A stretch of 64,000 nucleotides of DNA from Hanleya hanleyi. Lineage: Eukaryota > Mollusca > Polyplacophora > Lepidopleurida > Hanleyidae. A program made the translations under genes and the position numbers. Positions 1 to 38,357 of this stretch are shown piece by piece. The DNA lies in NCBI GenBank assembly GCA_036873755.1, contig JAVTVY010025309.1, positions 52,375 to 116,374 of the forward strand, written 5' to 3'. Under the pieces are notes generated by a model. The model saw nothing but the letters and a program-made list of their open reading frames with translations. It searched no databases and was not told the origin of the DNA. Position 1 is the stretch's first letter, and each line of letters begins with the position of its first letter.

Positions 1-2578
1 TGATATTGTGTTAGCAACGTTGAGTTCAGACATCTTACTCAAATTTCTGGTCAATTAACACAAAAATCTGTGGTATAAATTAGCTGTATTCCGTATAGAG
101 ATATCATGTTAATAGCTTCGAATCTATATTCAACATGTAATCTGACCTAGATAAATATAGGTCAACATCGTTCATCTTTAATAGGCATCTGGTCCATCAC
201 CAGCTGCAACTGTTGTATGCACTTAAGTGCCTGACTATAGTCCTCGAAGAGTTATCGTGGTAAAATTTAATATAAAGATATGGATGGACAAGACGAAACC
301 AAAATGTGCCGAGGGGTAAAATTATAGCGGAATTTTTCTGTCAAACTGCTCTACAAGCTTATTTTGCGCCACGCATGAATCAAAGGAACTTTCATCTCCC
401 GAAATTGAAGAATGGCAATTTAACATCTGTCCTCTCATTTCAACTTGCGCGAGAGATAACTGAAGTTAACTGTAAGTTCGATGAATGGCAAAGTCCACAA
501 GGATTAAATTCTCCTAAATCTGGCAATCCAACAACTGCTCAATATAAACAGTAAGTGATATTACAAATCATAATATCAAGACACATGCACATTCTCAGTG
601 TTCGCAATCAAGAAAATCGTCGATAAATATCCATATTACTTCTGTTAAATTTGGTCATTCAGCATGCCATCGAACTGTTCTGGAATTCATGTCCCTCCTT
701 GGAAAGCGAAATAGACCACTAATACCAACCCAGTTACCCACGAAAATCAATAACTTGAATAACGAAAGGCTTACTTTAACTGTTCCTTCACTGACAACAA
801 TACCAATGCTTCAGCCGTGACGAAATATGTTGTCGCTGAGGTTTTATTAATTCATCATACCTTGATGGAAATCCCGAGTCCAGTCAAACAGTTACGGTAT
901 ATTCCAGTTTGTGGCTGGTCTTGTCTTCTGGACAAAAAAACCTTGTTCACATATCCAGTAGAGGCCGGTGCAAGAAGCTAGCAGCTGGTCACGATCATAT
1001 CAAACCCACTCGATCTGTGAGAGATTAGACATAAAGTACACGATTTTGCATAGGCGTATTACTCTCACTTTGCCAATGCGAAAGCGGGGATACATTGTGA
1101 TACATTCACTCACTCACAGATATTAATAATGCAGAAGAATCTGTCCATTGCGCATACATGACTGGCCTAACAACAGCTATTTCCCTTCTGTAGATACGAT
1201 CGAATAAATCGACGCAACTTATGTTCTACTTAATATTACTGCTTATTTTATCAGATCAAACTTTTTAACCGCTTCCCATTATGCTACTTCAAACAGTTTC
1301 CGGAACTCAAGTGTTGATTGACGTTAACCCGGGTGGTTGACCCTCAAGTCATGTCTCTGCATATATAGGTGTTGAGAAGTTATCAAGCTTCCGTATATTC
1401 TAACCAGAAAATTATCTTTTCAACACGTTTCGACGTGTAATGCATATTTTTAAAAGTATTCATATACACACCGCCCACAAATCGGATAGTCAATGAAATA
1501 GACATCAAAATTCCCGAACAAAATGCAGAATTATTTCAAGCATTCATTTGAAACAGATTTCTCCAGAAATCATTTCTTTATTTTGCAATTCAATTAAATG
1601 AGGAACAGTCTTTTCATATTTCCGGGCTTACTATTATCGCAATATCTTCATACAAAAACAAGGCGCCCATGGATATTGTGAAGACAGTTCGATCTCACGA
1701 TACAAAATTGTGTACCAGTAAAATTTTATGATGTCTTCAAATTAACTCTGCCGCCGGTACATAATGTTTATGTATCCCTTTGGTTCTAATGTAGCATATT
1801 TAGCGTACTCAGGGAAAAGGCCTCCTTTTCGACCGCGCCCCTCTCCCCACCTATTTGAACCTTAAAAAACATATCATTTGTTCTGAGATAGTCTCATATT
1901 CGTCGTCAATGGTCCAAATTTTCCAGGTTTATAGGGAAGCTGTTAAATTAAATATTAACATCGTAAGCCTCTTCAATACACCAAATTGCGTAAAATGAAA
2001 AATACAATTCAAAAGTAAAAGATCGCAATTAAGAAAAACCTAGTTACACCCATGAACCATACACAGATAGTGTGACAGCTCAGAAGAGTTGAAAATCGAT
2101 ATAATATAACGCAAAGCAAGATTTGTGGTTGGGATTTATATAACTCAGTGTGGGGACCTGCATCAAAATATGAAAGATGGAATGTTTTACTAAAAATTCC
2201 TTGTTCGACGACATTTGGCGATTCCATAGAAATTATATTGTTGTGATACGATCATATCAGTCCATGCTCCTTTTTCCGAATACGCTCATTTTCTAATACG
2301 AATATTGCTAATTATAGGTCAGTGGGGTAAACTATATTTAATTCCTCGTTGGAAGCAGAATTTTTTTTTGTCATGTACATTTTTGTAGGAGGTAAGTGAA
2401 ACCGGATAAGGAAGCCGTCCAAGAAATTTGTCCGGAATAATCTAAGCCTATATAACCAAATTCTTGACATTGATTCTGACAAAGAAAGATCGGCAGCATT
2501 GGTATAAAGCAACAGTGGAAAGCTTACGAACATTAGCAATTGTTTTATACTATTCGATATAATTATTAGTAGAGACAA

Positions 2579-5500
2579 ATGGATATCACAAGAGAAACAT
2601 TAGGTAAGCTTATTTCTGATATCAAGAACAGTCATCCGCGGTTTGTCAGCACTGAAGGCATCCCTCCGGAGTACGGTTCGAATTATTTTATAGTAGCAGC
2701 CCATTCGAATACGACTCCAGTTAGACAGAATGTCAATGTAAGCCGGATAGGACATTCGTCAACTGTATGCGATTCCCACCGTTTGATTTATCTCGTTGAG
2801 AAGAATTGACCCATGTAACAAAGCAATTTATCACAGAATCTGTTTGAGACCAGTTAATTTTTTTGTAATTATATAGAACCATATTTCCGTTCAGTGTATA
2901 AACTCAAACATGTTCGTCTAAACATTCCAATCCACGTGCCGTATGATGTATTATATGGACTGTTGATTACATTGTAGTTCCGTCACGGGATTCTATTTGA
3001 TTATAGCGATGCCTTAATGCATTAAGACCTATACTGATTTGCACGAATTATGGGAAAGTTAATGATGTGGATTCTTCACGATCCGCATTCATCGTTACGA
3101 ACAGGATATACAAGACGACGTGAACATGAAGATTCAGAGATAAGCTGTCACGTTGACCAAATTGCACCATAATGCAATAGTTCAATTGAGCGAACCAGAT
3201 TCGATATATTATTCATAATTTCTGTTTGCCGTTTTACCGTACTTGATAATTTGTTCCAAATTTGTTCTTCCTCACTTTAACCAATATAACCCTGTTAACT
3301 CGCATAGGCCTTTTTGTACCATAAAAGTAAGAGATCTTATTGAAGGAAAACTATTTTAGATCTTGTGATCGAATATTATTCTGTTAGTGTACTACAAACT
3401 ATTTTAGATCTTGTAATCGAATTTTATTTTGTAAGTGTACTACAACTTTCTTATTAATTGCTATTTTTGTCGAACTCGCGGAATTTAACAAAGATTCGTA
3501 TATAACAGTGTATGTATTTTTACAGTCCGGCAGGTGGTGTCGATCGCTTTTCTTCTCACTTCAAATTTGGTTGGCTGTCATTGCTATCCAATCTTCACGA
3601 CGGACAACCTTGGTGTGGTTCAATCACTTGTGGGACAAACCATGCGAGCAGTAAACGGTAGTCTGGGACAGCTGGTAAGTTATCAATAGCAAGAGTATCG
3701 GGATTGTCTAATAATGAGCGAATTAATGCGGTATTTAGATTGTCGACACGGTTGGTCGATCTGACTTTTTTTATCACAAACGATAGCTATCCCTTCCGCC
3801 AGCTATAGGTTATCTGTATAGCATCCAACTGTATCCACCTTCTAACGCCTAGTTGGGAAATACTTCCCAAAAATCGAGCTAAACGAAAAATAATCAATAT
3901 CAAATTTTGTACACTGATCGTCTCTGAACAAGACTGCTATACTCTATTATTTGAATTGCTTGAAAGTAATCTTCTTGAAGTAATGCGAATCATTTCTTGC
4001 TCAGAGAGATCAATATGACATATCGATAAAGAGGGTAGCCAATTTAATCAGCATTGTACACAACTATTAGCGTCAGATCCAAAATTCAATAGCTAATAGT
4101 TATATTACTCACTGTGTATGAAGACTCCAGAGTACAATTTTCAATCAAAGTAGTACGATCACGTTTGTAGTATAGAGACGAAAGGTTGAGCCTTTCTTTA
4201 TCACTGATATTCATTTGCTATACTTGTATGGTATTTGTTGAATGAGAGAGAGACAGTGAGAGAATTAAGGTTCGAAATGGCTCATTCCTCTACAATATCC
4301 ATTTGGATAAAATCGTTTCGCCTTCAAACGACCTCTGGGTCCTGGTTAAGCGGAGTTAAGCTCTCGACAATGATGAGATTAGAAGCAGACTGGTGTACTT
4401 TCATTTGTAGAATGTTTTCTGTCTACAGCGGCTTTCAACAATTTATGGCAAATCTTTTATAACTAATATAATTGATTTTTTTTTCAGTGCCCCGTGATTG
4501 AGTATCCTCAAGAATACAACGAATCTACCTGCTTTCTTTACGCGGATGCGATTGTAACCAGGCATACCAGCGAGATAGGCGATGATAACATGACTGTGAA
4601 CTATTTCCGTGGACAGTCTCTATCTATTGACGAAGTACAGGTAAGGCTTTATGAGAATACAGTGGCTCCGCAATGGGCCTTTCCCGGCATCAGACGGAGT
4701 GCGCAGGCGTAATCCTGTCGGAGCCTCGCCTGCAAATGTCTGGGTAGTCAAAATTTGGTAAATATGCACCAAATTGTCATACTATATAAAGAAAGGACCA
4801 TTATGTTTGTCCTAATGAATATTTGGCAACTTTAAGTGAAATATCTATTTCGAGATATCGCTCCAAGTCAGAGCACAGAGAGAAACCAGAAATTTTGCAG
4901 GCGAGTCTCCGACAGGATCTCCTCATTGCGCACTCGGACTGAGGTCGATATCGGGAAGGGCTCAGTGTCCTAAGATAAAATCCCGATAGTATTATCTACA
5001 CGGCTTGTCATTGACTCAAAACAGAAATATATGCGGTCAGAAGAATTTATATTGGGCGAGGCGAGGCGTCGACGAATTTATGAATATCCCGTTTAAGACA
5101 TTTTCTGAACATCTGAATGTCCCTGGGAAGAATTCGGGATTAAATGATAGCTTGTGTACATCTTAGGCCCTATGTTGTTGCTGATCAAGTAGCAAGAACT
5201 GCATGTAAAGTCACACCTTCGTAATATTCATCAATGCTCAAAATCGTTGATTACGATGAAATAGGAACTACAGCTGTCCTTATAGTCCTTGTCACAAATA
5301 TCCTATACCTCACATTACACTCTTAGCATCCTAATTCAAGCAGAAATACAATGGAAATATATAAATATTAACAAAAGCTGGTTTCCTGTGGACACGTTAA
5401 CTGTGATAGCTACGTAATACACTAGTTTGTGGCCATTATAAGATGTTTTCCAACCACAACTATAACACTGTTGTTCGTAATAATCCACTGATAAGCTTGG

Positions 5501-6320
5501 CATAATGCAAAAGCAAAGTATCTCTGAATAAACTTAGTAAACGCATGGTGACAGTCTCAATATTCCGAAAAATGTATTTGTCATCATCAGGATGTGAGTG
5601 GTATGTTTATGCCACTGAGTTTATTCGGAGTTACTTTGTTTCTGCATAGTTCGTGAGGCCATTAACGGTTATTTTTTTTTTAACCAGGTGATCCTTGACG
5701 AATCGGTACAACTCTTGAAGCTTCAATTCAAGCTCCTAGCAACAGTGGAAGATCTTATGGATAAAACATCCAACCCTGGATTGGCATTATGTCGACAAGC
5801 AAAGACCTATGTGTTGAACGTTTTCAGCAGACCGGAGTTGCCACAAGTTGTGAGTAACGAAAGTGCATTTTTATCGGCATACTAATGGTAGTAATATATA
5901 TATATATATTTTTATTTTTTTGCAAATCGTCCTGTTGATCATGTTTTTTCAGTCATGCAGTCCGATAAATTAATTGATTCACGTCACAGTCAGTTTGATA
6001 CAGTTTTCGCAGAATGGATTCGTCTCAATAATTATTAGACATAGTAATAATAAAAGAGTTGAGAAATGTAGACCTATGCACCGTGAGCCCAATTAATTTA
6101 ACGATACAATGCCTTTAAATTCTCTCAGCTTGAAGCCCTTGGGTCTACTACAAACATCAGTGTCGTTGTGCCACCATCCCTGCATCCGGTCGGCGATATC
6201 GCGAATTGGCATTTGGGCGCCCTGAAGAAATCATTGGATGGATTTTCTGACTTGAGTTCGGCTCTGGAGAGAGTCAGGGATTTTATAGTCCAACCGACCG
6301 AGCAGTCAACCTCATCATAA
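2579..6320 (+). CDS. Candidate long-chain class I helical cytokine, copy A (5 exons)
   Basis: Coding exons are 2579-2603, 3526-3674, 4488-4640, 5688-5849 and 6129-6320, giving 226 residues. All junctions are GT..AG. Intron phases are 1, 0, 0, 0. Residues 1-28 form a signal peptide (MDITRETL, then a core around VVSIAFLL). Predicted helices are A (about 32-58), B (about 104-133), C (about 141-156) and D (about 187-217). The A-B and C-D loops are long and the B-C loop is short, as in up-up-down-down cytokines. Cysteines are C26, C28, C59, C73 and C144; sequons are at N52, N69, N92 and N172. Established knowledge: GH, prolactin, EPO, IL-6, IL-11 and G-CSF genes have five coding exons with phases 1-0-0-0 and a very short first exon. 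That this is a homologous cytokine acting through a JAK/STAT-type receptor is inference. It could instead be an unrelated secreted helical protein. The gene model itself is strong because it is intact in both copies. Confidence 0.7.
2604..2737 (+). other. Possible alternative extension of first coding exon (copy A)
   Basis: The first exon can be read past its 2604 donor to a second good donor at 2738 (GTAAGC), giving 53 open codons from the same ATG. Joined in phase 0 to a downstream acceptor at 3533/3534 (CGGCAG then GTGGTG), the frame continues into the same protein. That would make a 268-residue form with the hydrophobic segment internal rather than N-terminal. Both alternative sites are also present in copy B (31924 donor and the CGGCAG acceptor near 32716). 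Which form is made cannot be told from sequence; the short form has the cleaner signal peptide. Confidence 0.35.
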
Positions 6321-6738
6321 TCGCCATGGACCGTACTTATTTATGCATACTCATCGCAAAAATGATAAGAGGACAATACTCCCATTACTGGCTCTGATTT
6401 CATTATATATATATAAGGCCGGTAAATTATCGTCCACATTTGACCCGTCTCAGTAGATATGGAAATTGCAAAATGCAAGCTTTTTCCTTCGAGACATTTG
6501 TATTTTACCTGATGTGTTGGGGATAATTAAGATGTTTAATAGAGAATATTACTGCCATTGGATTGTCAGATTGATCACCAACGGTGCTTCAATACAGACT
6601 GTCCTCCATCACACTGGTTTAATAAAGGCATATTGATTACATCCACAATGTTCCCCCATATCAACGGTAAAGGATTGTAAGGCCCAAGGTCTTCTTTAAT
6701 TCATATTTTTTACTTATATATGCTATTGGTATGGAAGA

Positions 6739-6744
6739 AATAAA
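6739..6744 (+). terminator. Putative polyadenylation signal, copy A
   Basis: An AATAAA hexamer lies about 420 bases after the stop codon and is conserved in copy B at 35947-35952. An earlier AATAAA at 6621 is altered in copy B, so the conserved one is the better candidate. Confidence 0.35.
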
Positions 6745-6954
6745 TAACTGATTTCAAATAAATTTATCACGCATTGGAAATTCATACTGAGTTCATCGTC
6801 AACCTACAGCATATCATGATGTACACATTCATTATTTTCTAATCAATTTGATCTATTATTATATCCATAAGTCACAAGACTTTATGGAGTTACATATTTA
6901 TGCGTACGACGTTGCACTAAATGTACCTTCGGCTTCACCATGTAATACAGGATA

Positions 6955-7426
6955 ATGGGTTATTATTTGGCGAAGCTGAATGCACATTCAGCGAAACGTC
7001 GTATGCCTGACGAAACGTCGTATGTAAATAAGGAAAGTCTCGTCAATTATATTACATCACTGCTATGCCATGTAAAAAGTTATGTATTATATTATATCAT
7101 TCCTGCAGTGATGCTTAAATGTATATTTATTTTTTTCCAAAATTTTACAATAAACAGTAATATTCTTCCATACACGTTTGTTTCCGTGTCGGTGCTTTGG
7201 CGCAATAACGCTAAAAAATCTCAATCCAAAATTTTTTTTAACCACATATAGTTCGATCTTCATGACGTTTCTTTATAGGATTAGTGAACCACAATATGCA
7301 ACATATATTCAGGAGTGTAAACGATTTCAAGAGACAACGGTACAACCCTTGAAACGCCAACTATACAGAAATATGTCTTTCGTAGAGAAAAATACCCGAG
7401 TTTTTACTGTAAACGTCCGCAATTAA
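6955..7426 (+). other. ORF-bearing conserved stretch downstream of cytokine-like gene (frameshifted in copy A)
   Basis: The reading frame starting at ATG 6955 ends at 7251, and an overlapping frame continues to 7426. In copy B the equivalent stretch (36200-36661) is one open frame of about 153 codons. The two differ by a one-base length change in a T-run near 7230. The last part (7279-7426) follows a plausible acceptor (TTTATAG) and differs at only two bases between copies, both changing an amino acid (T to A, V to A). No domain is recognised. It may be a terminal exon of an unknown gene or simply chance-open 3' flank; copy B lacks a matching ATG. Confidence 0.2.
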
Positions 7427-7794
7427 AAGTGACTTATCACCAGAGTTGTTGAACTTTTGAAAATGGCTATGAGTTTACAAAACTATATAATATTTTCATT
7501 ATCACCATATCTGCCGCTAAACTGCATCAAACTATTATCACAAGGTATCATGTTTTAGTTATATAGAAAAAACTATGCTAATAGGTATACGAAATAGCCA
7601 AAGGCAGACGAAATCCTAATTATAGACGTCTGTCGACACTGTTTCAATTCTCTTTCACAAATTCTATAAAGAAGAGTACAAAATAAAAGCTGGATAAATT
7701 TCTGTATGAAGTACAGCTTTCCCAGCAAAATTGAAAAATAACTTTTTGGTTTCACAAATGGTACATATCCCAGGATTTGTTCTTGGTAACGAGC

Positions 7795-7990
7795 GTCTGG
7801 TCCGTCTTTCATTATTCAGCCGTCGTCCGTTAAAGAACCTCTGCGTCCATAATCCAAAGACCTATTCCATATAACAGCATTAGCACCAAATTAAAAAAAA
7901 GTCATTATACATAAACATAGGCTAGTTTCCTGCAAATAGAAACGGTCAATAATTGTCAATGATGCCGGCAAGACATCGTGATGTTCCAAA
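7795..7990. repeat. Dispersed repeat fragment shared with 20625-20830
   Basis: This stretch matches 20625-20830 in the same orientation: CGTCCATAATCC, CCATATAACAG, then CCTGCAA and GATGCCGGCAAGACATC. Copy B keeps only its first part (about 37035-37091). The - strand frame at 20 kb (residues around DVLPASL and VDRFSL) is mirrored here. It is probably a fragment of the tyrosine-recombinase element and marks the right edge of the duplicated segment. Confidence 0.6.
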
Positions 7991-13232: not shown

Positions 13233-14424
13233 TTATCGAGATAACGCGTCGAGAACCGTGTTTTGTGATCCAGGTTCATACTGGACCGTGTAATCATAAT
13301 ACAACAAACGTGCGCCCCAACGAGCAATGCGCATAGGCCTATGACCTTTTCCAGATGTAGAGAGCAGTGTCATCAGAGCCTGGTGATCTGTTCGTAAAAT
13401 AAACTTTCTTCCCCAGAGATAAGCATGCCATCGTTCAATCGAAGAGAGGCAACTTAATGCTTCCCTTTTGCTAGTACTGTAACGCTTTTCACAACCCGTC
13501 AGTTTTCTATAAGCACAAGCAACCATAACGTCATCACCCTGGCAATTAATTTGACTCACTACTGCGCCTATACCGTAGCCGGACGCGTCAGTTGTCACAA
13601 TCGTTTGGAGTTTGGGGTCAAACAAAGCCAAGGCAGGCCTGTGAAGAATAGCTTGTTTGACAGCCAGGAATGCTGTGTTAGCTTCAGCCGTCCATCTAAA
13701 TGGAACTTTAGTTTGCGTATCTCTAATCGATTGTACTAAATCAGAGAACTGATGGACAAACTTGGCGTAATATGCAGCCATACCAATGAATGAACTGACC
13801 TGATCGGGGCTTTCTGGGGGGGGGGGGGGCTTGCAGCAGCAATGCCTTGTACGAGTTCGGGGTTGGGACGTATACCGTCACTACCAAGCACGTGTCCAAT
13901 TACTTGTATTCTCGGAACACCGAACTCGCATTTAGTATTCAGTTTGATGCCTTTGTCAGACAAACGACGGAGAACACGTCTCAAATTTTCATCGTGCTCT
14001 GGCTTCGTCTTTCCGGCAACGAATACGTCATCGAAGTAACAAATCACGCCTGGAAGGTCACCAAGTACAGAATGCACCAGACACAGAGTCTTTGAAAACA
14101 TGCGGGGGGCGGGCGGAAGCTAGACCAAAACAAACGCGTTTATACCTGTAAGTTCCTGCGATACTTATGAAGGTCGTGAGGTCACGGCTGTCTTCCGTAA
14201 GCTCAAGCTGATGATACGCAGCTTTGACATCGAGTTTTGAAAACACAGTGGAACCGCGCAGCTCACAAAGTAACTCATCAGTGTTGGAAACCGGGTATTT
14301 TTCGACAACAATCGAGTCATTAACCTTTCGAAGGTCGACACAAACGCGGATACTGGAAAAAAATTCCCCGTGCTTCTACTATGGGTGAGACCCATTCAGA
14401 AGCTTCCACTCGTTCTATTACATC
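13233..14424 (-). pseudogene. Gypsy reverse transcriptase and RNase H, degraded
   Basis: On the - strand, RT runs from the junction at 14424 (NDVIERVEASEWVSP) through FSKLDVKAAYHQLEL and the catalytic YFDDVFVAG (near 14030). It continues to GHVLGSDGIRPNP, then RNase H with TTDASGYGIGAV, KREALSCL and RTDHQALM, ending in the DALSR spacer. Several frameshifts split it (around 14350, 14250, 14100 and at the G-run 13815-13830). The catalytic residues are mostly still visible but the frame is broken. Confidence 0.85.
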
Positions 14425-14439
14425 ATTATCTTGGAGACG
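14425..14439. repeat. Target-site duplication of LINE insertion (left)
   Basis: ATTATCTTGGAGACG here is repeated exactly at 24431-24445, directly after the LINE poly(A). Removing the intervening DNA restores the Gypsy RT reading, which establishes the insertion boundary. Confidence 0.92.
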
Positions 14440-15125
14440 CTAGAGAGAGGGTCTTAGAATTAAAAGAATATTATGATTTGGTAGATCCATGGCGGGAATT
14501 TAACCCGGAAGTAAAACGATACACTTGGCGACAGCCGACCCCACTCAAACAATCGCGTCTCGATTTCTTTTTGACATCTCGTAATTTGCTGCACGGAGTG
14601 AAATGTTCTAACATTCACCCCAGTTATAGATCAGATCATTCACTCATCACTTTAACATTGTCGTTTAAAAATTATAAAACAGGCAAAGGGTTTTGAAAGT
14701 TCAACAACTCACTGATAAAAGATAAAGACTATGTAGAGATTGATAAAGGCACTATTAAAGATACAATAGAACAATATACTAGAACTGACAAAACAAGCTC
14801 AGCAGAAGCATCGGAGTTCACTATTAATGATCAGTTGTTATTTGAAATGATATTACTGAGTATAAGAGGCAAGTCTATATCATACTCATCCTACAGGAAA
14901 AGGGAACTAAAGAAAGAAGAAACAAACTTGAAATATGAATTAGTGAAGATGGAAACTAAATTAGACGAACTGATTGACTACGATGAGAAACGGAGCGTCC
15001 TGAATGACATAGACGAAACTAAAGCAAAATTGAAATCCATTTTCAAGACTAAAGTAGAGGGAATTATGACAAGGGCGAAAGCCAGGTGGTCAGAAAAGGG
15101 TGAAATACCATCAAAATATTTTTAG
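14440..15125 (+). pseudogene. LINE endonuclease C-terminus and linker
   Basis: The frame gives RYTWRQPTPLKQSRLDFFL, then a conserved RSDHSLI, which are the last two blocks of apurinic-type LINE endonucleases (SRLDFFL and SDH). After a stop near 14694 a lysine- and glutamate-rich linker follows (14835-15125, coiled-coil-like), ending WSEKGEIPSKYF, typical of the stretch just before the RT domain. The N-terminal endonuclease is missing through 5' truncation. Confidence 0.75.
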
Positions 15126-15225
15126 AACACAGAAATTACTTGAATAAGGCAATAATAAGAATCGAAAACTCAAAACATGAAGTTTTAACAGGCCATTAGA
15201 GGAAACAAAATATTTTTACAAAAAA

Positions 15226-16200
15226 TTGTACACTAAGAAAGACACGAGTTCGGTAGATTTGGACGATTTGTTAGGCGATACTGTTCCGAAACTTAATCCT
15301 ATTCAGACAGAATCTATGGAAGGGGATATGAAAAATGACAAAAGTCACGGACCAGATGGTTACACAGCTGAGTTTTTCAAATTTTTCTGGATTGATATCA
15401 GTCGGTATTTCATAAAGTCGCTGAACTTCGCATACTATGATGGTGCACTGTCTGTAACGCAACGACGAGGAATTATAACCTGTCTCCGTAAAGAAGGAAA
15501 ACCAAAACATCTACTGAAAAATTGGCGGCCTATATCACTCCTGAATATCACCTATAAAATTGCATCCGCGGCTATTGCACGAAGAATAAAAACAAGTTTA
15601 CCATATACAATACACGAAGATCAAAAAGGTTTCATGGCTGGTAGATTTATTGGGGAAAATACAAGGCTGGTATATGATATAATGCAATATACGGAGGATC
15701 ATCATATACCGGGATTATTAATGTTAATAGATTTCGAGAAAGCTTTTGACTCGGTGGATTGGTCGTTTATACAAAAATCATTGGATTTTTTCCAATTTGG
15801 CCCTTCTATACAAAAATGAATAAATATATTCTAAAAAATGCCCAGACATGTGTTTTAGTCAATGGTTATGCTTCCCAATTTCTTTATATATCACGCGGCT
15901 GTCGCCAAGGGGATCCATTATCACCATACATTTTTCTTATATGCGCCGAAATTTTAGCTGCAATGCTTAGAGGTAATAAAAATATTCGAGGTATCATGAT
16001 CGGAGATGAGGAATTCCTTTTGTCACGATACCTCGACGATACTACAATTTATTTAGATGGTTCTATCAAAAGTCTAAATTATTGCCTTGAAACATTAGAA
16101 CATTTTGCAAATTTTTCAGGTTTAAAAATGAATGTAGACAAAACAAAAGTTATTCGAATAGGTTTAAACAAAACATCTAGCACAACACTGAAAACAAAAT
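15226..16200 (+). pseudogene. LINE reverse transcriptase (fingers/palm)
   Basis: Frame 15226-15819 contains KSHGPDGYTAEFFK, the LKNWRPISLLN block, QKGFMAGRFIGEN and LIDFEKAFDSVDW. A one-base frameshift near 15780 leads into frame 15759 onward with GCRQGDPLSPYIFLICAE and the catalytic box SRYLDDTTIYLDG (YLDD in place of the usual YADD/FADD), then SGLKMNVDKTK. Block order and spacing are those of an L1/Tx1-like RT. Coding similarity stops at 16200, where the minisatellite begins. Confidence 0.85.
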
Positions 16201-16675
16201 GGCATTTGGACTCTCGACTTCTCGATTTCTCGTTTTGGCGACTTGTCGATTTCTCGTTTTGGCGACTTGTCGATTTCTCGTTTTGGCGACTTGTCGATTT
16301 CTCGAGTTCTCCACTTCTCGTGTTCCCGACTTCTCGACTTCTCGCGTTCTCGACTTCTCGTGTTCTCGACATCTCGACTTCTCGCTTTCTCGACTTCTCG
16401 CGTTCTCGACTACTCGACTTCTCGCGTTCTCGACTTATCGCCTTCTCGCGTTCTCAACTTCTCGACTTCTCGCGTTCTCGACTTCTCGGTTTCTCGTTAT
16501 GGCGACTTGTCGAGTTCTCGCATTCTCGATTTCTCGTTTTGTCTACTTCTCGTTTTGGCGACTTCTCGACTTCTCGTTTTGGCGAGTTCTCGTCTCGACT
16601 TCTCGTCTCGATTTTTCGACTTCTCGCCTCGATTTCTCGACTTCTCGACTTGTCGAGTTCTCGAGTTATCGCGTT
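16200..16675. repeat. TTCTCGACT minisatellite inside LINE ORF
   Basis: About 475 bp are built from a 9-bp-type word (TTCTCGACT, with variants TTCTCGCG, TTCTCGTTTTGGCGACT and TTCTCGTCTCGA). It replaces the stretch between the RT palm and thumb. All three + frames stay open through it (for example repeats of SRLLDFS and RLLVFST), because the unit has no stop codon in any frame. The LINE sequence resumes by about 16720. Confidence 0.9.
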
Positions 16676-16727
16676 AAATTGGGGCCGAAAAGAGTAGAAC
16701 TAGCATGGCCACATCCGGCTTCCATAA

Positions 16728-17306
16728 TTGAAAGATGTTTATGCGGCCATGAAAGTATGGTCTAAACGTGGTCTAACTCCGCTAGGTAGAGTTGTTATCC
16801 TAAAAAATCTGCTGCTGTCAAAACTAAATCACATCTTCTCATCTCTCCCTAATCCACCAGAAACTATGATACAGGAATTTCATAAAAAGTGCTTTGAGTT
16901 TGTGTGCAATTCAAAACCAGACAAAATTTCCAGGAAAACGTCAATTAAAACTATGGAGGAAGGAGATCTTAACATTCCGGTCATCAAGTTTGTCATTCAG
17001 GCCCAAAAAATATCATGGATGAGGAGATTACAGGTAAATAACCCTAAATGGGGAAAAGTATTGAAAATGTATATGCCAAGAACCCTGAATCCAGTGGAAG
17101 TAGGATCTGCCTTTTTACGGAAATATGTTATATCTACTATTGAAAATCAATTCTGGAAAGTCGTTCTTGTTGCATGGGCCGACTTTCAAGTGGAAGTAGT
17201 TTATAAGGAGAGTGAAATCTTTCCCAGCGAAAAAATATGGTATAATGAGAACTTCGCCTTAAATAACCAACCTTTTTGTGTACGCTACAAGATCGGTCAG
17301 AGATGA
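16728..17306 (+). pseudogene. LINE RT thumb / connection region
   Basis: The frame gives VWSKRGLTPLGRVVILKNLL, SKLNHIFSSLPNPP, then CFEFVCNSKPDKI and SWMRRLQVNNPKWG. This is the W-x-x-R-x-LT-x-x-GR-x-x-x-K block followed by the usual tryptophan-rich tail of Tx1/L1-like ORF2. It breaks off at YKIGQR (about 17304) where foreign sequence starts. It resumes at 23115 with IYLPHWNESGVRFVNDLL. Confidence 0.75.
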
Positions 17307-21104: not shown

Positions 21105-22140
21105 ACATATGGCACACCACCATATGTGGATGATTAAAAGCATGTGACACACCTCCGCATGTAAATAAATGCAACATATGGCACACTCTCCATATGTGCA
21201 TCAACAAAAACATATGGCACACTGTCCATATGTAAATACAAACACATCATATGGCACACTGTCCATATGTAATACAATCACATCATATGGCACACTGTCC
21301 ATATGTAAATACAATCACATCATATGGCACACTCTCCATATACAATCACATGGCACACTCTCCATATGTAAATACAATCACATCATATGGCACACTCTCC
21401 ATATGTAAACACAATCACATCATATGGCACACTGTCCATATGTAAATACAATCACATCATATGGCACACTCTCCATATGTAAATACAATCACATCATATG
21501 GCACACTGTCCATATGTAAATACGATCACATCATATGGCACACTCTCCATATGTAAATACAATCACATCATATGGCACACTCTCCATATGTAAATACAAT
21601 CACATCATATGGCACACTCTCCATATGTAAATACAATCACATCATATGGCACACTTCCATATGTAAAACAAAAACATCATATGGCACACTTCCATATGTA
21701 AATACAATCACATCATATGGCACACTCTCCATATGTAAATACAATCACATCATATGGCACACTCTCCATATGTAAATACAATCACATCATATGGCACACT
21801 CTCCATATGTAAATACAATCACATCATATGGCACACTTCCATATGTAAAACAAAAACATCATATGGCACACTTCCATATGTAAATACAAACACATCATAT
21901 GGCACACTCTCCATATGTAAATACAATCACATCATATGGCACACTCTCCATATGTAAATACAATCACATCATATGGCACACTCTCCATATGTAAATACAA
22001 TCACATCATATGGCACACTCTCCATATGTAAATACAATCACAACATATGGCACACTCTCCATATGTGCATCAATAAAAACATTTGGCACATTCCCATGTC
22101 AAACAAAATATATGGCACTCTTCCATATGTAATACCATCA
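21105..22140. repeat. 37-bp tandem array of CATATGG...CCATATG hairpins
   Basis: About 26 units have the form CATATGGCACACTCTCCATATG plus a short spacer (TAAATACAATCACAT). Each unit is an inverted repeat with a 7-bp stem (CATATGG / CCATATG) and a loop of about 8 bases. A higher-order period of about 182 bp is visible: 21572-21753 is repeated almost exactly at 21754-21935, including the variant spacer AAAACAAAAAC. Edge units (21060-21175 and 22070-22260) are more diverged. Open frames over it (MAHSPYVNTITSYG-type) are repeat artefacts. Confidence 0.92.
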
Positions 22141-24445: not shown

Positions 24446-25006
24446 TTTTATCTCTCTGGCGACTTCTTCTCAACTTTTGTTGCACTGGGACAGCATTTGG
24501 TTTAAGCCGTATTCTGTGTTTAAAGCCTTTCACCAACCCTAACTCGCCTGTAGAGAGTTCGGGAAATTCTGATGGTACAGTGCAAGTACTGTCAGCAAGG
24601 TGTACGGTAGGGGAGCGTGCGGTAGGTGTAACTAGTGTACGCGTGTCAAGTGTCAACTTTGACGGATGGCTAGTTGATGTTTTAGGGGCATCGGCACTGA
24701 GGCCTGCACTCTGTGGTACATTAGAATCAGTACAATAACATGTAAGATCTTACCTTCAATGTTTATACACAAACTTTGCATGAGATCCTTTCCAAGTAAG
24801 GTTGAACCTTTTTTAACCACATACCACGTAGCAACAACTGTGTTGCCTTTGAAACTAACAGGGGCATCAAAACAACCAATAATTGCAATATTATCAGACG
24901 TGTTAGACTGATTCGAATGGTTCTTTGCATGGTCTAAGAGCTTCATGCAGAAAGTTCTTCCGAAAATGTTTCTCATTCTTGAGAGAGCCATCTGAGGCAG
25001 AGTCAA
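24446..25006 (-). pseudogene. Gypsy protease C-terminus and start of RT
   Basis: - strand frames give GCFDAPVSFKGN, KKGSTLLGKDLM (end of the protease-like domain), then ELGLVKGFKHRIRLK and AVPVQQKLRR, the well-conserved lead-in to a Gypsy RT. The frame is cut at the LINE target site; the next residues are found at 14424 leftwards. Internal stops mark it as dead. Confidence 0.75.
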
Positions 25007-29478: not shown

Positions 29479-31764
29479 GTGATATTGTGTTAGCAACGTT
29501 GAGTTCAGACATCTTACCTAAAGTTCTGGTCAATTAACACAAACATCTGTGGTATAAATTAGCTGTAGTCCTTATAGAGATCAACATGTAATCTGACCTG
29601 GATAAATATAGATCAAAATCGTTCATCTTTAATACGCATCTGCTCCATCACCAGCTGCAACTGTTGTATGAACTTGAAGTGCCTGACTATAATCCTCCAA
29701 GAGTTATCGTGGTAAAATATAATATGAAGATATGGATGGACAAGACGAAATCAAAATGTGCCGAGGGGTTAAATTACAGCTGAGCTTTCCTGTCAAACTG
29801 CTCTACAGGCTTATTTTGCGCCGTGCATGATTCAAAGGAACTTTCGACTCTCGAAATTAGTCCTTCAGCATGCCATCGAGCTGTTCTGAAATTCATGTCC
29901 CTCCTTGGGAAGCCAAATAGACCACTAATACCAACCCAGTTACGTACGAAAATCAATAAATTTACCAAATTGAATAACCAAAGGCTTACTTGAAATGTTC
30001 CTTCACTGACAACAATATCAATGCTTCAACCGTGATGAAATATTTTGTTGCTAAGGCTTGATTATCAATTCAGCATACCTTGAGTCCAGTCAATCAGTTA
30101 CGGTATATCCCAGTTCATGGCTTGTCTTGAAAAAAACCTTATTCACATATCCAGACAGGGCCGGTGCAAGTAGCTAGCAGCTGGTCACGATCATATCAAA
30201 CCCACTCGATCTGTGAGAGATTAGATATAAAGTACACGATTTTGCATAGGCGTATTACTCTGACTTTGCCAATGCGAAAGCGGGGATACATTGTGGCGCA
30301 TTTACCCACTCACCGAGAGTAATATCACAGAAGAATCCATCCATTGCGCATACATGACTGGTCTAAGAGCAGCTATTTCCCTTCTGTAGATACGATCAAA
30401 TACATCGATGCAATTTATGTTCTACTTAATATTACTGCTTATTCTATCATATCAAACTTTTTAACCGCTTCCCAGTATGCTACTCCAAACAGTTTCCGGA
30501 ACTCAAGTGTTGATTGACGTTAACCCGGGTGGTTGACCCTTAAGTCATGTCTCTGCAGGTGTTGAGAAGTTATCACGCTTCCGTATATTCTAACCAGAAA
30601 ATTATCTTTTCAACACGTTTCGACGTGCAGCGCATATTTTTGAAAAGTATTTATATACACACCGCCCACAAATCGGATAGTCAATTAAATAGACATCAAA
30701 ATTCCCGAACGAATGCAGAATTATTTCAAGCATTCATTTGAAACAGATTTCTCCAGAAATCATTTCTTTATTTTGCCATTTAGTTAAATAAGAAACACTA
30801 TTTTCATATTTCCGAACTTACTATTATCGCAATGTCTTCATGCAAAAAAGACGTCCATGGATGTTGTGAAGACAGTTCGATCTCACGATATAAAATTGTG
30901 CAACAGTAAAATTTTATGATGTCTTCAAATTAACTCTACCGCCGGTACATAATGTTTATGTATCCTTTTCGTTCTAATGTAGCACATTTGGCGTACTCAA
31001 GGAAAAGGCCTCCTTTTCGAACGCGCTCCTCTCCCCACCTATTTGAACCTTAAAAAAATATCATTTGTTCTGAGATAGTTTCATATTCGTCGTCAATGGT
31101 CCGAATTTTCCAGGTTTATAGGGAAGCTGTTAAATTAAATATTAACATTGTAAGCCTCTTGAATGCACCAAATTGCATAAAATGAAAATACAATTTAAAA
31201 TTAAAACATCGCAATTAAGAAAATCCTAGTTATATCCATGACCCACACACCGATAGTGTGATAGTTCTGAAAAGTTGGAAATGGATAGAATATAACGCAA
31301 AGCCTGATTTGTGGTTGGGATTTTATAACTCAGTATTGTGACCTGCATTAAATATGAAAGATGGAATGTTTTACCAAAAGTTCCTTGTTCGATGACATTT
31401 GGGCGATTCCATAGAAATTATATTGTTGTGATACGATCATATCAATCCATGCTCCTTTTTCCGAATACGCTCATTTTCTAACGCGAATATTGCTAATTAT
31501 AGGTCAGTGGGGTAAACTATATTTAATTCCTCGTCGGAAGCAGAATTTTTTTTTGTCATGTACATTTTTGTAGGAGGTAAATGAAACCGGATAAAGAAGC
31601 CGTCCGAGAAATTTGTCCGGAATAATCTAAGCCTATAAAACCAAATTCTTGACATTGATTCTGACAAAGAAAGACCAGCAGCATTGGTATAAAGCAAACA
31701 TTGGAAAGCTTGCGAACCTTACCAATTGTTTTATACTATTCGATATCATTATTAGTAGAGAAAA

Positions 31765-34700
31765 ATGGATATCACAAGAGAAACATTAGGTAAGCTTATT
31801 CCTGATATCAAGAACAGTCATCCGCGGATTGTCAGCACTGAAGGTATCCCTCCGGTGTGCGGTTCGAATTATTTTATAGTAGCAGCCCAATCGAATACGA
31901 CTCCAGTTAGGCAAAATGTCAATGTAAGCCAGCACATTCGTCAACTGTATGCGATTCCCACCGTTTGATTTATCTCGTTGAGAAGAATTGCCCCATGTAA
32001 CAAAGCAATTGATCACAGAATCTGTTTGAGACCAGTTAATTTTTTTGTAATTATATAGAACCATATTTCCGTTCAGTGTATAAACTCAAACATGTTCGTC
32101 TAAACATTCCAATCCACGTGCCGTATGATGTATTATATGGACTGTTGATTACATTGTAGTTCCGTCACGGGATTCTATTTGATTATAGCGATGCCTTAAT
32201 GCATTAAGACCTATACTGATTTGCACGAATTATGGGAAAGTTAATGATGTGGATTCTTCACGATCCGCATTCATCGTTACGAACAGGATATACAAGACGA
32301 CGTGAACATGAAGATTTAGAGATAAGCTGTCACGTTGGCCAAATTGCACCATAATGCAATAGTTCAATTGAGCGAACCAGATTCGATATATTATTCATAA
32401 TTTTTGTTTGCCGTTTTACCGTACTTGATAATTTGTTCCAAATTTGTTATTCCTCACTTTAACCAATCTAACCCTATTTAACTCGCATAGGCCTTTTTGT
32501 ACCATAAAAGTAAAAGACATTATTGAAGGGAAACTATTTTAGATCTTGTAATCGAATATTATTCTGTTAGTGTACTACAAACTATTTTAGATCTTGTAAT
32601 CGAATTTTATTTTGTAAGTGTACTACAATTTTCTTATTAATCGCTATTTTTGTCGAACTCGCGGAATTTAACAAAGATTCGTATATAATAGTGTATGAAT
32701 TTGTTCAGTCCGGCAGGTGGCGTCGATCGCTTTTCTTCTCACTTCAAATTTGATTGGCAGTCATTGCTATCCAATCTTCACGACGGACAACCTTGGTGTG
32801 GTTCAATCACTTGTGGGACAAACCATGAGAGCAGTAAACGGTAGTCTGAGACAACTGGTAAGTCATCAATAACAAGAGTATCGGAACTCTCTAATAATGA
32901 GCGAATTAATGAGGTATTTAGATTGTCGACACGGTTGGTCGATCTGACTCTTGTATCACAAGACAATAGCTATCTCTTCTGCCAGCTATAGGTTATCTGT
33001 ATAGCATCCAACTGTATCCACCTTCTAACGCCTAGTTGGGAAATACTTCCAAAAAATCGAGCTAAACGAAAAATAATCAATATCAAATTTTGTACACTGA
33101 TCGTCTCTGAACAAGACTGCTATTCTCTATTAAGCTCCCTATTTGAATTGCTTGAAACTAATCTTCTTGAAGTAAGGCGAATCATTTGTTGCTCAGAGAG
33201 ATCAATATGACATATCGATAAAGAGGGTAGCCAATTTAATCAGCATTGAACGCAGCTATTAGCGTCAGATCCGAAATTCAATAGCTAATAGTTATATTAC
33301 TCACTGTGTATGAAGACTCCAGAGTACAATTTTCAATCAAAATACTACGATCACGTTTGTAGTATAGAGTCATCCTGTTGAGCCATTCTTTATCACTGAT
33401 AGTCATTTGCTATAGTTGTATTGTATCTGTTGAATGAGAGAGAGACAGAGAGAGAATTAAGGTTCCAAATGGCTCATTCCTCTAAAATATCCATTTGGAT
33501 AAAATCGCATAGCCTTCAAACGACCCCTGGGCCCTGGCTTAGCGGAGTTAAGATCTCGACAATGATGACATTAGACGCAGACTGGTGTACTTTCCTTTGT
33601 AGAATGTTTTCTGTCTACAGCGGCTTTCAACACTTGATGGCAAATCTTTTATAACTAATATAATTCATTTTTCTTTTTAGTGTCCCGTGATTGAGTATCC
33701 TCAAGAATACAACGAATCTACCTGCTTTCTTTACGCTGATGCGATTGTAACCAGGTATACCAGCGAGATAGGCGATGGTAACATGACTGTGAACTATTTC
33801 CGTGGACAGTCTCTATCTATGGACGAAGTACAGGTAAGGTCTTATGAGAATACAGTGGCTCCATAATGGGCCATTCCCGATATCAGACGGAGTGCGCAGG
33901 CGTGATCCCGTTGGAGCCTTGCCTGCAAATCTGGATACCGCTAGTCGAAATATGGTAAATATGCATCAAATTGTCATACTATATACAGAAAGGACCATTA
34001 TGTTTGTCCTAATGAATATTTGGCAACTTTAAGTGGAATTTATGTCAGTTATATCTATTTCGAGATATCGCTCCAAGTTAGAGCACAGAGAGAAACCAGA
34101 AATTGTGCAGGCGAGTCTCCGACAGGGTCACCCCTCATTGCGCACTCGGACTGAGGCCGATATCGGGAAAGGCTCGGTGTCCTATGGTAAAATCTCAATA
34201 TTAATAGTATTAGTTACACGGCTTGTCAGTGTCTCAATTCAGAAATATAGGCGGTCAGAAGAATTCATATTGGGCGAGGCGAGGCGTCGACGAATTTATC
34301 CCGTTTAAGACCTTTTCTGAACATCTGAATGTCCCTGGGAAGAATTCGGGATTAAATGATAGCCTGTGTACAACTTAGGCCCTATGTTGTTGCTGCTGAA
34401 GTAGCAAGAACTGCATGTAAATTCACACATTCGTAATATTCATTAGGGCTCAAAATCGCTGATTACGATGAAATAGGAACTACAGCTGTCCTTATAGTCC
34501 TTGTCACAATTATCCTATACCTCACATTACACTCTTGGCATCTTAATTCAAGCAGAAATACAATGGAAATATATAAATATTAACAAAAGCTGGTTTCCTG
34601 TAGACACGTTAATTGCGATAGCTACGTAATACACTCGTTTGTGGCTATTATAAGCTGTTCTTTTCAAACCACAACTATAACACTGTAGTTCGTGATAATC

Positions 34701-35527
34701 CACTGGTACGCTTGGCATAATGCGGAAGCAAAGTAACTCTGAATAAACTTAGTAAACGCATGGTGACAGTCTCAATATACCGAAAAATGTATTTGTCATC
34801 ACCAGGATGTGAGTGGTATGTTTATGTTACTAGATTTATTCGGAGTTACTTTGATTCTGCAAAGTTCGTGAGGCCTTTAACCGTTCTTTTTTTAACCAGA
34901 TGATCCTTGACGAATCGGTACAACACTTGAAGCTTCAATTCAAGCTGCTAGCAACAGTGGAAGATCTTATGTATAAAACATCCAACCCTGGATTGGCATT
35001 ATGTCGACAAGCAAAGACCTATGTGTTGGACATTTTCAGTAAACCGGAGTTGCCACAAGTTGTGAGTAACGAAGTGCAATTCTATCCGCATACTAATGGT
35101 TGTAATATATATATATATATTTTTTTTTTGCAAATCGTCCTGTTGATCATGTTTTTTCAGTCATGTAATCTGATAAATTAATTGCTTAACGTCACAGTCG
35201 GCTTGATATAGTTTTCACAGAATAGATTCGTCTCAAAATTATTAGATAGAGTCATAATAAAAGAGTTGAGAAATGTAGACCTATGCACCGTGAGCCCAAT
35301 TAATTTAACGATACAATGCCTTTAAATTCTCTCAGCTTGAAGCCCTTGGGTCTACTACAAACATCAGTGTCGTTGTGCCACCATCCCTGCATCCGGTCGG
35401 CGATATCGCGAATTGGCATTTGGGCGCCCTGAAGAAATCATTGGGTGGATTTTCTGACTTGAATGCGGCTCTGGAGAGAGTCAGGGATTTTATTGTCCAA
35501 CCGACCGAGCAGTCAACCTCATCATAA
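31765..35527 (+). CDS. Candidate long-chain class I helical cytokine, copy B (5 exons)
   Basis: Exons are 31765-31789, 32709-32857, 33681-33833, 34900-35061 and 35336-35527. Exon lengths (25, 149, 153, 162, 192) and phases (1-0-0-0) are identical to copy A, and the product is again 226 residues. All donors and acceptors are intact. By my codon-by-codon reading the two coding sequences differ at 23 positions, 16 of them amino-acid changes. Changes are V13A, V24I, C26S, G56R, H84Y, D91G, I105M, V110M, L118H, D134Y, N153D, V154I, R157K, D200G, S206N and S207A. The four sequons and cysteines C28, C59, C73 and C144 are kept, so C26 is unlikely to be structural. Helix D is nearly unchanged. Absence of any stop or splice damage argues that both copies are functional genes. 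Confidence 0.7.
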
Positions 35528-35946
35528 TCGCCATGGACCGTACTTATTTATGCATACTCATCGCAAAAATGATAAGAGGGCAATAATCTCATTACTGGCT
35601 CTGATTTCATTATATATATATAAAGCCGGTAAATTATCGTCCACATTTGACCCGTCTCAGTAGATACGGAAATTGCAAAATGCAACCTTTTTCCTTCGAG
35701 ACATTTGTATTTTACCTGATGTGTTGGGGATAATTAAGATGTTTATTAGAGAATATTACTGCCATTGGATTGCCAGATTGATCACCAACGGTGCTTCAAT
35801 ACAGACTGTCCTCCATCACACTGGTTTAATAGAGGCATATTGATTACATCCACAATGTTCCCCCATATCAACGGTAAAGGATTTGTAAGGCCCAAGGTCT
35901 TCTTTAATTCATATTTATTACTTATATATGCTATTGGTATGGAAGA

Positions 35947-35952
35947 AATAAA
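35947..35952 (+). terminator. Putative polyadenylation signal, copy B
   Basis: AATAAA conserved in position with 6739-6744 of copy A, about 420 bases after the stop codon. Confidence 0.35.
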
Positions 35953-36062
35953 TAACTGATTTCAAATAAATTTATCACGCATTGGAAATTCATACTGAGT
36001 TCATCGTCAACCTACAGCATATCATGATGTACACATTCATTATTTTCTAATCAATTTGATCT

Positions 36063-36084
36063 ATTATTATTATTATTATTATTA
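36063..36084. repeat. ATT microsatellite specific to copy B
   Basis: About seven ATT units where copy A has only two or three (near 6855). It is a simple length change between the duplicates. Confidence 0.8.
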
Positions 36085-36199
36085 CATGTATTATATCCAT
36101 AAGTCACAAGACTTTATGGAGTTACATATTTGTGCGTACGACGTTGCACTAAATGTACCTTCGGCTTCACCATGTAATACAGGATAATGGGGTTAGTAT

Positions 36200-36661
36200 T
36201 TGGCGAAGCTAAATGCACATTCAGCGAAACGTCGTATGCCTGACGAAACGTCGTATGTAAATAAGGAAAGTCTCGTCAATTATATCACATCACTGCTATG
36301 CCATGTAAAAAGTTATGTATTATATTATATCATTCCTGCAGTGATGCTTAAATGTATATTTATTTTTTCCCAAAATTTTACAATAAACAGTAATATTCTT
36401 CCATACACGTTTGTTTCCGTGTCGGTGCTTTGGCGCAATAACGCTAAAAAATCTCAATCCAAAAGTTTTTTTTTAACCACATACCGTTCGATCGTCATGA
36501 CATTTCTTTATAGGATTAGTGAACCACAATATGCAGCATATATTCAGGAGTGTAAACGATTTCAAGAGACAACGGTACAACCCTTGAAACGCCAACTATA
36601 CAGAAATATGTCTTTCGTAGAGAAAAATACCCGAGTTTTTACTGCAAACGTCCGCAATTAA
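36200..36661 (+). other. Open stretch downstream of copy B gene (153 codons)
   Basis: Counterpart of 6955-7426, here uninterrupted. It contains a hydrophobic middle (VLYYIIPAVMLKCIF) and ends in QPLKRQLYRNMSFVEKN and a stop. It has no ATG at its start (an in-frame TAG lies two codons upstream of the first TTG). Only two bases of the last 148 differ from copy A. No family recognised; coding status doubtful. Confidence 0.2.
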
Positions 36662-38093
36662 AAGTGACTTATCACCAGAGTTGTTGAACTTTTGAAAATG
36701 GCTAGGGGTTTACAAAAATATATAATATTTTCATTATCACCATATCTGCCGTTAAACTGCATCAAACTATTATCACAAGGTATCATGTTTTAGTTATATA
36801 GAAAAATCTATGCTAATAGGTATACTAAATAGCCAAAGGCAGGCGAAATCCTAATTTTAGACGTCTGTCGACGCTGTTTCAATTCTCTTTCACAAATTCT
36901 ATAAAGGAGAGTACAAAATAAAAGCTGGATACATTTCTGTATGAAGTACAGCTTTCCCAGCAAAATTGAAAAATAACTTTTTGGTTTCACAAATGGTACA
37001 TATCCCAGGATTTGTTCTTGGTAACGAGCGTCTGGTCTGCGTCCATAATCCAGACCTATTCCATATAACAGCATTAGCACCAAATTAAAAACAAGAGCCC
37101 AAGGGTCTTCAATATACGCCCGTATATCTGGAATCACATTGGTCCAAATTTCAAGGTTGTTTAATAGCCTTGATTCCAATTGATAGCTAGCAATCCAGAA
37201 AAAGGTTACAATTTTGTGCTTCAGAAAATGTAACATATATCACATCTTATATATTGAATCATAATCTAAAATAAGCTTAACTCTTGGCAACTAGTTGACC
37301 TTGGAGCAAGAGCCGAGAGCTCACATATCCCACAATGGAATTGACAATAGTCAAACACAAGAAAATAGTAGTTTTTCTGCAAATGGATTTCTCTCAGACG
37401 AGAAAAAATTTCATGAAGGAAGAAGAAAGTGATGAAGTAAACCTTTGTTCTTCACTTAATATGAAGGTCATAAAAGACCCATCTCTCTGTTAAATTATTA
37501 ATTGTATGGTTTTTATTTCACAACAGTTTAACTAAATGTATCTGTTTCAAACATGGCAGGCAACTCCACAGGACAAATGCTATATACATGTAGGGGAGAG
37601 AACTCTGAATATTCCAACCTAACACATATAGTCAGCTAAACTTGATTCGGGTTTGGAGGACTGTGACCTTGACCGTTGACAAATTGATGTATGGTTCCTC
37701 TTTGCCATGCGAGTAAGGTATACTCTATATTTGGTACCAATCCATACCTTGAAACTAGAGATATCGCATGAACAACAAATGTTAACGGATAATGGACAGA
37801 ACCCAACATCGCATTACATGACCTCGTCTTGGACAGGCATATGAAAATGTGACTTGTAATGATTTCCTGATTTTGAGGTCACAGTGACCTTAACATTTGA
37901 CCTAAATTTTGGTACAAGACACATCGTCTTCCCTCAATGTATCAATGGACACAAAAATCATGATTTTTATGAATTTCATGCGTTTGGGGGTCACAGTGAC
38001 CTTGACGTTCGGCCTTGACCTACATTTTTGTACGTGACACATCATGTCTCCCTAATGTATCTACTGACACAAAAAAAAGTTATTTTCAAAGAT

Positions 38094-38106: not shown

Positions 38107-38344
38107 GTGAGTGAGTGAGTGAGTGAGTAGGATTTAACGTCGTTTTCAACATTGTTTCAGTCATATCACGACGGTGCCTACATGTGCCAGAACACGAGAG
38201 TGTCCACAGTTCCTATTATTCTGGACACTGATCAGCCCAGCCAGTACAGCACTCGGTCACCCATCCAAGTATTGACCGAGCTCAACGCTGCTTATCTTCG
38301 GTGATCTGACGAGAACCGGTGTGCCCAACGTGATGCGTCGTACC
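38107..38344 (-). mobile_element. 5S rRNA-derived SINE
   Basis: On the - strand the element starts with about 90 bp that read as 5S rRNA: CACACCGGTTCTCGTCAGATC, AAGATAAGCAGCG (A-box region) and ACTTGGATGGGTGACC (C-box). An unrelated body follows (GTCGTGATATGACTGAAAC), then a short tandem tail that reads CTCACTCACTCAC. It is flanked by an exact 13-bp target-site duplication, so it is a full-length insertion of 238 bp. Established knowledge: SINEs with 5S heads form the SINE3 class and use the internal 5S promoter. Body fragments of the same family occur at 55271-55322 and 55414-55462. Confidence 0.85.
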
Positions 38345-38357
38345 TTCTGGAATCCGG
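38345..38357. repeat. Target-site duplication of 5S-SINE (right)
   Basis: Exact copy of 38094-38106, after which the nuclear-receptor-motif repeat resumes. Confidence 0.9.

Follow-up and report, generated by a model that had tools for sequence, protein, structure and literature searches.

The genes for the vertebrate hormones and cytokines EPO, GH, PRL and IL-6 share a common plan: a tiny first exon ends in phase 1, exon 2 closes with helix A, exon 3 encodes the A-B loop, exon 4 holds helices B and C, and exon 5 holds the C-D loop and helix D. A gene that appears to follow this plan lies in a stretch of 64,000 nucleotides (nt) from the genome of Hanleya hanleyi (Mollusca, Polyplacophora), which is referred to here, at its full length, as the window. 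Like the genes of the vertebrate long-chain class I cytokines (EPO, TPO, GH, PRL, IL-6, IL-11, and G-CSF), this gene, copy A, encodes a putatively secreted protein in five coding exons with intron phases 1-0-0-0, a tiny first exon, and the same distribution of predicted helices over exons; unlike them, it shows no detectable sequence or profile similarity to the class. It also resembles EPO in having a cysteine just past the border of exons 2 and 3 with a sequon nearby, whereas its exon 3 is longer (51 residues, compared with 29 in EPO and 40 in GH). A first-pass annotation, made from the letters of the window, had proposed a lophotrochozoan class I cytokine. The gene, its family, the layout, and the helix placement speak for that proposal, but kinship to known cytokines is at chance level. 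We consider it an even call that copy A belongs to a multigene family of molluscs whose products are small secreted glycoproteins with the architecture of long-chain (class I) helical cytokines.

In a 2026 survey of 18 metazoan phyla or subphyla, IL6R, JAK, and STAT are first found together in Mollusca, IL6 is restricted to vertebrates, and the molluscan ligand is left open (PMC13203501). The BLAST limits of that survey (E <= 1e-5, identity >= 30%) mean that it could not have detected a family like the one described here. An Epo-like endogenous ligand of the conserved class I receptor CRLF3 is expected in invertebrates and is described as unidentified (PMC8063046); the Hanleya family is a candidate molluscan counterpart of the CRLF3 ligand of insect hemolymph treated there. 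The insect Unpaired proteins (Upd1-3, the ligands of Domeless) are comparable in that a role as a protostome JAK/STAT ligand is proposed for both, and differ in that the mollusc family matches no Pfam model. An interferon-like protein, CgIFNLP, has been reported from the oyster (PMC9756803); it too is a mollusc protein proposed as a helical cytokine, but it is described as class II-like. No paper on a class I cytokine ligand from molluscs came up in a search of PMC titles and abstracts, a collection that lacks most subscription journals.

The five exons of copy A (Table 1) add up to 681 nt and encode 226 residues, and all introns begin with GT and end with AG; exon lengths and phases are as first annotated. 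The protein has cysteines at positions 26, 28, 59, 73, and 144 and sequons at 52, 69, 92, and 172. Cys26, in whose place the other nine copies have Ser or Phe, probably falls where the signal peptide ends, which leaves four mature cysteines (28, 59, 73, and 144) and, with the four sequons, agrees with the earlier count. A hydrophobic core at residues 12-25, conserved in 10 of 10 rows of the family alignment, is consistent with a putative signal peptide in the secreted-type protein that had been claimed. The predicted mature protein is acidic, with an isoelectric point (pI) of 4.7 and 13 Lys plus Arg against 23 Asp plus Glu. The period-3 signal of copy A was matched by 0.6% of 3000 non-exon stretches of the same length from the window (p = 0.006), and its codon score was reached in 4% of 5000 chains, each assembled at random from four open segments bounded by AG and GT (p = 0.04).

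The gene family is real, and the strongest evidence for the gene model of copy A is this family, whose members have common exon borders. The window is part of contig C20666, and the whole genome (2.48 Gb) was searched with the spliced protein; 53 exon-sized matches at E <= 10 yielded ten complete or near-complete genes on seven contigs (copies A to J). The family therefore has at least ten members, with pairwise identities of 35-93%, and a second genome search with the most distant of them, J, gave no contig with a convincing new member. Exons 2 to 5 keep their AG..GT, phase-0 borders in all ten genes. Exon 1 is exactly 25 nt long and starts ATGGATAT in nine of the ten (A to I). Eight of them have the usual GT donor after it, and copy E (L041) reads AG/TT at this border. 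For copy J, exon 1 was not found within 1.9 kb upstream. Intron 1 is in phase 1 in every one of the nine copies that have exon 1, and the layout read from a single gene thus holds across a divergent family. A TATA-like motif precedes exon 1 in all eight copies with sequence there (A to I except F), as TATATAA in seven and TATAAAA in B. The alignment has 37 invariant columns, among them Cys28, Cys59, Cys73, Trp190, Gly193, and Gly201; these three cysteines are present in 10 of 10 copies and Cys144 in 8 of 10.

Besides the ten genes, the genome holds five decayed or fragment loci, L042, L046, L047, L049, and L051, which the ten-row alignment leaves out. L046 has lost an acceptor and carries a stop, and L049 carries in-frame stops. 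L042 and L051 have a similar exon 2 with extra SxxNxT-like repeats in helix A (up to 65 residues), and their other exons are partly missing or on the opposite strand. The family evolves fast, by birth and death. Several choices shape the alignment: the exon-2 donor of copy J was set 12 nt early (a GTAAG lies further on, also in phase 0), so that the J row is short by four residues in the alignment and in all profile work; the start of exon 5 was picked among several in-frame AG sites in E (three), I (four), and J (two); and row E includes the exon 1 with the non-GT donor.

Copy B (31765-35527) lies in an approximately 7.3-kb tandem duplicate within the window and has five exons with splice sites and frames intact and 16 amino-acid differences from A. 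Positions 648-7901 and 29854-37095 have not diverged evenly: the 5' flank and introns 2-4 differ by about 7%, intron 1 and the 3' flank by 2-3%, a pattern that gene conversion or staggered exchange would produce. The 681 coding nt of A and B differ by no insertion or deletion, against 14 such events in 3043 aligned intron nt (3.1 expected in the coding part; P(0) = 0.044). Substitutions occupy 23 of 656 sites in exons 2-5 and 156 of 2125 in introns 2-4 (p = 0.0003); with all four introns included the p value is 0.005, which is weaker because intron 1, like the 3' flank, is also little diverged. The 23 substitutions cause 16 amino-acid changes where 16.6 are expected under neutrality, and silent changes are not in excess, so this pair alone is insufficient to establish constraint. 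Across 45 family pairs the ratio of nonsynonymous to synonymous rates (dN/dS, NG86) runs from 0.37 to 1.43, a range that would be expected for cytokine evolution, and pairs among copies A to D that span the split between A/B and C/D give 0.37-0.45.

Table 1. Features of the two gene copies in the window and locations of the other family members
Feature	Location	Strand	Remarks
TATA-box-like motif, copy A	2449..2455	+	TATATAA; 130 bp 5' of ATG
Copy A exon 1	2579..2603	+	25 nt; start codon, then phase-1 intron
Copy A exon 2	3526..3674	+	149 nt; predicted signal-peptide core, Cys28, predicted helix A
Copy A exon 3	4488..4640	+	153 nt; long A-B loop, invariant Cys59 and Cys73, start of predicted helix B
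Copy A exon 4	5688..5849	+	162 nt; predicted helices B and C
Copy A exon 5	6129..6320	+	192 nt; C-D loop, predicted helix D, stop codon
Tandem duplicate of window 1-7901	29480..37095	+	Contains copy B; identity 92.5% in 29854-37095 and 85.5% in 29480-29858
TATA-box-like motif, copy B	31634..31640	+	TATAAAA
Copy B exon 1	31765..31789	+	
Copy B exon 2	32709..32857	+	
Copy B exon 3	33681..33833	+	
Copy B exon 4	34900..35061	+	
Copy B exon 5	35336..35527	+	Stop codon included
Copies A and B	In the window		
Copy C	C20666		16 kb before the window
Copy D	C1904		
Copy E	C19928		
Copy F	C22316		
Copies G and H	C33036		
Copy I	C33703		
Copy J	C1350		

The four amphipathic segments that had been annotated were examined by hydrophobic periodicity in the ten-row alignment, which supports A (98 degrees, p = 0.004), B (102 degrees, p = 0.024), and D (102 degrees, p = 0.017), and C weakly (94 degrees, p = 0.076); with the limits adjusted to approximately 36-58 for A, approximately 106-135 for B, 139-157 for C, and 184-217 for D, that claim stands for three segments and in part for the fourth. 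Three loop segments showed no periodicity near 100 degrees (p = 0.53, 0.47, and 0.35). These p values are uncorrected, and the seven segments were chosen after the limits of the first-pass annotation. Periodicity of conservation was found in C (p = 0.004) and D (p = 0.018), was weaker in B (p = 0.058), and was absent in A (p = 0.125), and a scan of the mature protein with 18-residue windows gave low p values only at approximately 34-66, 124-147, and 193-222, with 0.05-0.2 in helix B. Length changes fall mainly at 29-32, 59, 74, 85-89, 135-137, 168-177, and the C terminus, mostly in loops. When exon 4 alone (copies A and B) was modeled with AlphaFold2 (AF2), helices were predicted at 111-135 and 139-156, separated by a three-residue turn, at a mean predicted local distance difference test score (pLDDT) of 78.8; the alignment and this turn bear out the long A-B and C-D loops and the short B-C connection of the earlier reading. 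In terms of exons, exon 2 would end with helix A, exon 3 would form the A-B loop, exon 4 would contribute B and C, and exon 5 the C-D loop and D. Helix D has a probable break near the invariant Gly201, and the hydrophobic faces of its two predicted halves lie 46 degrees apart, which is compatible with one kinked helix but is not proof of it.

Searches for sequence kinship were made at several levels. Copy A had no match in Pfam, and the ten members searched singly touched four families at E values of 0.046-0.16, which is chance. In the PDB, nothing was found with the sequence of copy A, and the family profile drew four chains at E values of 0.29-1.7, the best being bacterial yibL and the third interferon gamma (E = 1.3). 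A search of 5.8 billion proteins, a collection other than an animal one, gave 218 candidates by sequence and 2877 by profile, none at E <= 10; 12 stretches from viral contigs and 29 from prokaryote genomes contained no relative. The collections searched for relatives were not animal ones, and their silence therefore says little. Pairwise scores against 12 human cytokines did not exceed exon-wise shuffles (best p approximately 0.1, for LIF, EPO, and CLCF1), with control myoglobin reaching p = 0.03 in the same test, and in comparisons between hidden Markov models (HMM-HMM) all 16 proteins stayed below 1% probability (GH highest at 0.7, control ferritin at 0.4). Of the cytokine and control sequences used, those of EPO and LIF were checked against the PDB. 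By eye, helix A and the stretch near Val95-Tyr97 resemble EPO, TPO, and LIF, but the likeness is not significant. The resemblance of helix D to the CNTF/IL-6 group did not survive comparison, as in either mode the score against CNTF is lower than the mean of the shuffles, and kinship to GH, EPO, IL-6, and CNTF is not supported here, all sequence and profile comparisons being at chance level. Human EPO itself finds TPO only at E = 0.49 in the same PDB search, and missing sequence kinship is thus weak evidence against a cytokine.

Tandem functional units of the PF14830 type are a mark of molluscan hemocyanin. Ten molluscan-type hemocyanin matches (PF14830, 107-147 bits) stand on one strand of contig C43406:171855-191861, representing either at least two tandem genes or a single hemocyanin of great length; this row supports a mollusc host and, with it, the description of the gene as mollusc-type. 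The genome also contains two matches over the cut-off to JAK-type FERM domains, with one open frame matching both TYK2 and JAK1, and a STAT domain. The most likely mechanism for the family would be a ligand role in JAK/STAT signaling, to which we give about the same chance of being right as of being wrong. The signal peptide would be cleaved near residue 26, and the whole protein may then fold into a bundle of four helices in up-up-down-down order, in which long crossovers would join A to B and C to D, held by up to two disulfides, one of them probably Cys59-Cys73 in the A-B loop. After release into the hemolymph, the faces of helices A, C, and D would bind a Domeless/IL6R-type or CRLF3-type transmembrane receptor, and receptor-bound JAKs would pair and activate STAT in hemocytes or other tissues.

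Several observations weigh against a class I cytokine. Pfam, the PDB, and the known cytokines gave no match above chance, although such similarity is not defining for the class; the IL6Ra-bind model, in an exon-blind search of the genome with this single model, gave five matches, none over the cut-off (best E 3.2). Length changes also occur within predicted helices (J has an insertion at 50 and lacks 144-145, and both G and I are gapped at 211-214); AF2 modeled exon 5 alone at low confidence (mean pLDDT 58.7), with helix D split into 184-200 and 203-217; and the exon of the A-B loop equals helices B and D in conservation and exceeds helix A. On the other side stand the class I features that the family does show: five exons with phases 1-0-0-0, a tiny exon 1, and helix D in the last exon, as in GH, PRL, EPO, and IL-6, and four predicted amphipathic helices, C being weak and D of low confidence, with long loops between A and B and between C and D but only a short turn from B to C. 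It is our tentative view, held at somewhat less than even confidence, that the class I cytokine gene plan was already present in the common ancestor of molluscs and vertebrates and that molluscs expanded it to at least ten ligands, partners of the IL6R/JAK/STAT module or of CRLF3. The main rival is a mollusc-specific, fast-evolving helical secreted glycoprotein with another trade (reproductive, mucosal, egg, or defense), whose layout arose by chance or from a habit of early phase-1 introns; we regard it as possible but rather doubtful. Values of dN/dS near or above 1 in many pairs would suit reproductive proteins equally, there is no homology to cytokines, and no relatives turned up in collections of which none was an animal protein collection. 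Moreover, a 1-0-0-0 pattern is expected from phase frequencies in about 3% of five-exon genes, and an early phase-1 intron is common in genes for small secreted proteins. However, the match exceeds the phases, extending to the tiny exon 1, the helix-to-exon plan, the short B-C turn, and the long A-B and C-D loops. The sperm lysin of abalone, the most familiar helical fast-evolving protein of gastropods, is strongly basic and cysteine-free and does not fit; kinship to lysin is rejected on a mature pI of 4.7 and three invariant cysteines.

A class II-type helical cytokine, of the interferon or IL-10 kind, seems improbable. Its genes also have five exons, the IFNL2/3 genes have a sixth, tiny phase-1 first exon (PMC2654155), the oyster CgIFNLP is described as interferon-like (PMC9756803), and interferon gamma is the third-best PDB profile match, though at E = 1.3. 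However, fish type I interferon genes have four phase-0 introns (PMC4929537) and no codon is split by introns in IL-10 family genes (PMC2654155), whereas the 0-0-0-0 pattern is not found here, intron 1 being in phase 1; the family has five coding exons and not six as in IFNL2/3, and four amphipathic segments against the six helices of class II proteins. A class II cytokine was rejected as first choice. Gene structure and helix pattern have revealed some helical cytokines, and the authors of that work warn of many false positives (PMC2654155). That the loci are decayed copies or a spurious gene model is very improbable. The stops of L049, the lost acceptor and stop of L046, the nonstandard border after exon 1 of E, and the neutral substitution ratio of A and B taken alone would fit decay, and copy B may be a second placement of a haplotype already present in the assembly. 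Against this, 8 of 10 copies are intact by all splice and frame checks at synonymous distances up to 0.5, dN/dS is low across the A/B-C/D split, and the TATA motif is kept wherever its sequence is available; a chance chain of open frames is ruled out by ten relatives with matching exon borders.

Elsewhere in the window, among 20 long open reading frames (ORFs), Pfam found only reverse transcriptases, RNase H, a zinc knuckle, and one chance-level match. Broken retroelements occupy 13233-17306, where the minus strand carries fragments of RNase H and reverse transcriptase and the plus strand a reverse transcriptase of the long interspersed nuclear element (LINE) type cut by an array of 8-bp units at 16212-16664. 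Gag-like ORFs lie on the minus strand at 24903-25906, one with a CCHC zinc knuckle (E = 0.00037). Minisatellite arrays are present at 21106-22140 (unit 37 bp), 38359-39716 (approximately 118-137 bp, with a higher order of 380), and 63167-63943 (43 bp). Beside the array at 38 kb, a 5S rRNA-like sequence (38241-38345, minus strand, 50.4 bits) is perhaps a degenerate 5S gene or a 5S-derived short interspersed nuclear element (SINE).

If the class I cytokine reading is true, the family would be a type of immune messenger previously presumed absent from molluscs, and its members, hidden from surveys of the BLAST type, may be the missing ligands of CRLF3 or of the IL6R/JAK/STAT module in molluscs. 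The helical hormone and cytokine gene plan would then predate the split of protostomes and deuterostomes. A named molluscan family with the class I exon plan makes the questions of the molluscan IL6R ligand and of the CRLF3 ligand testable.

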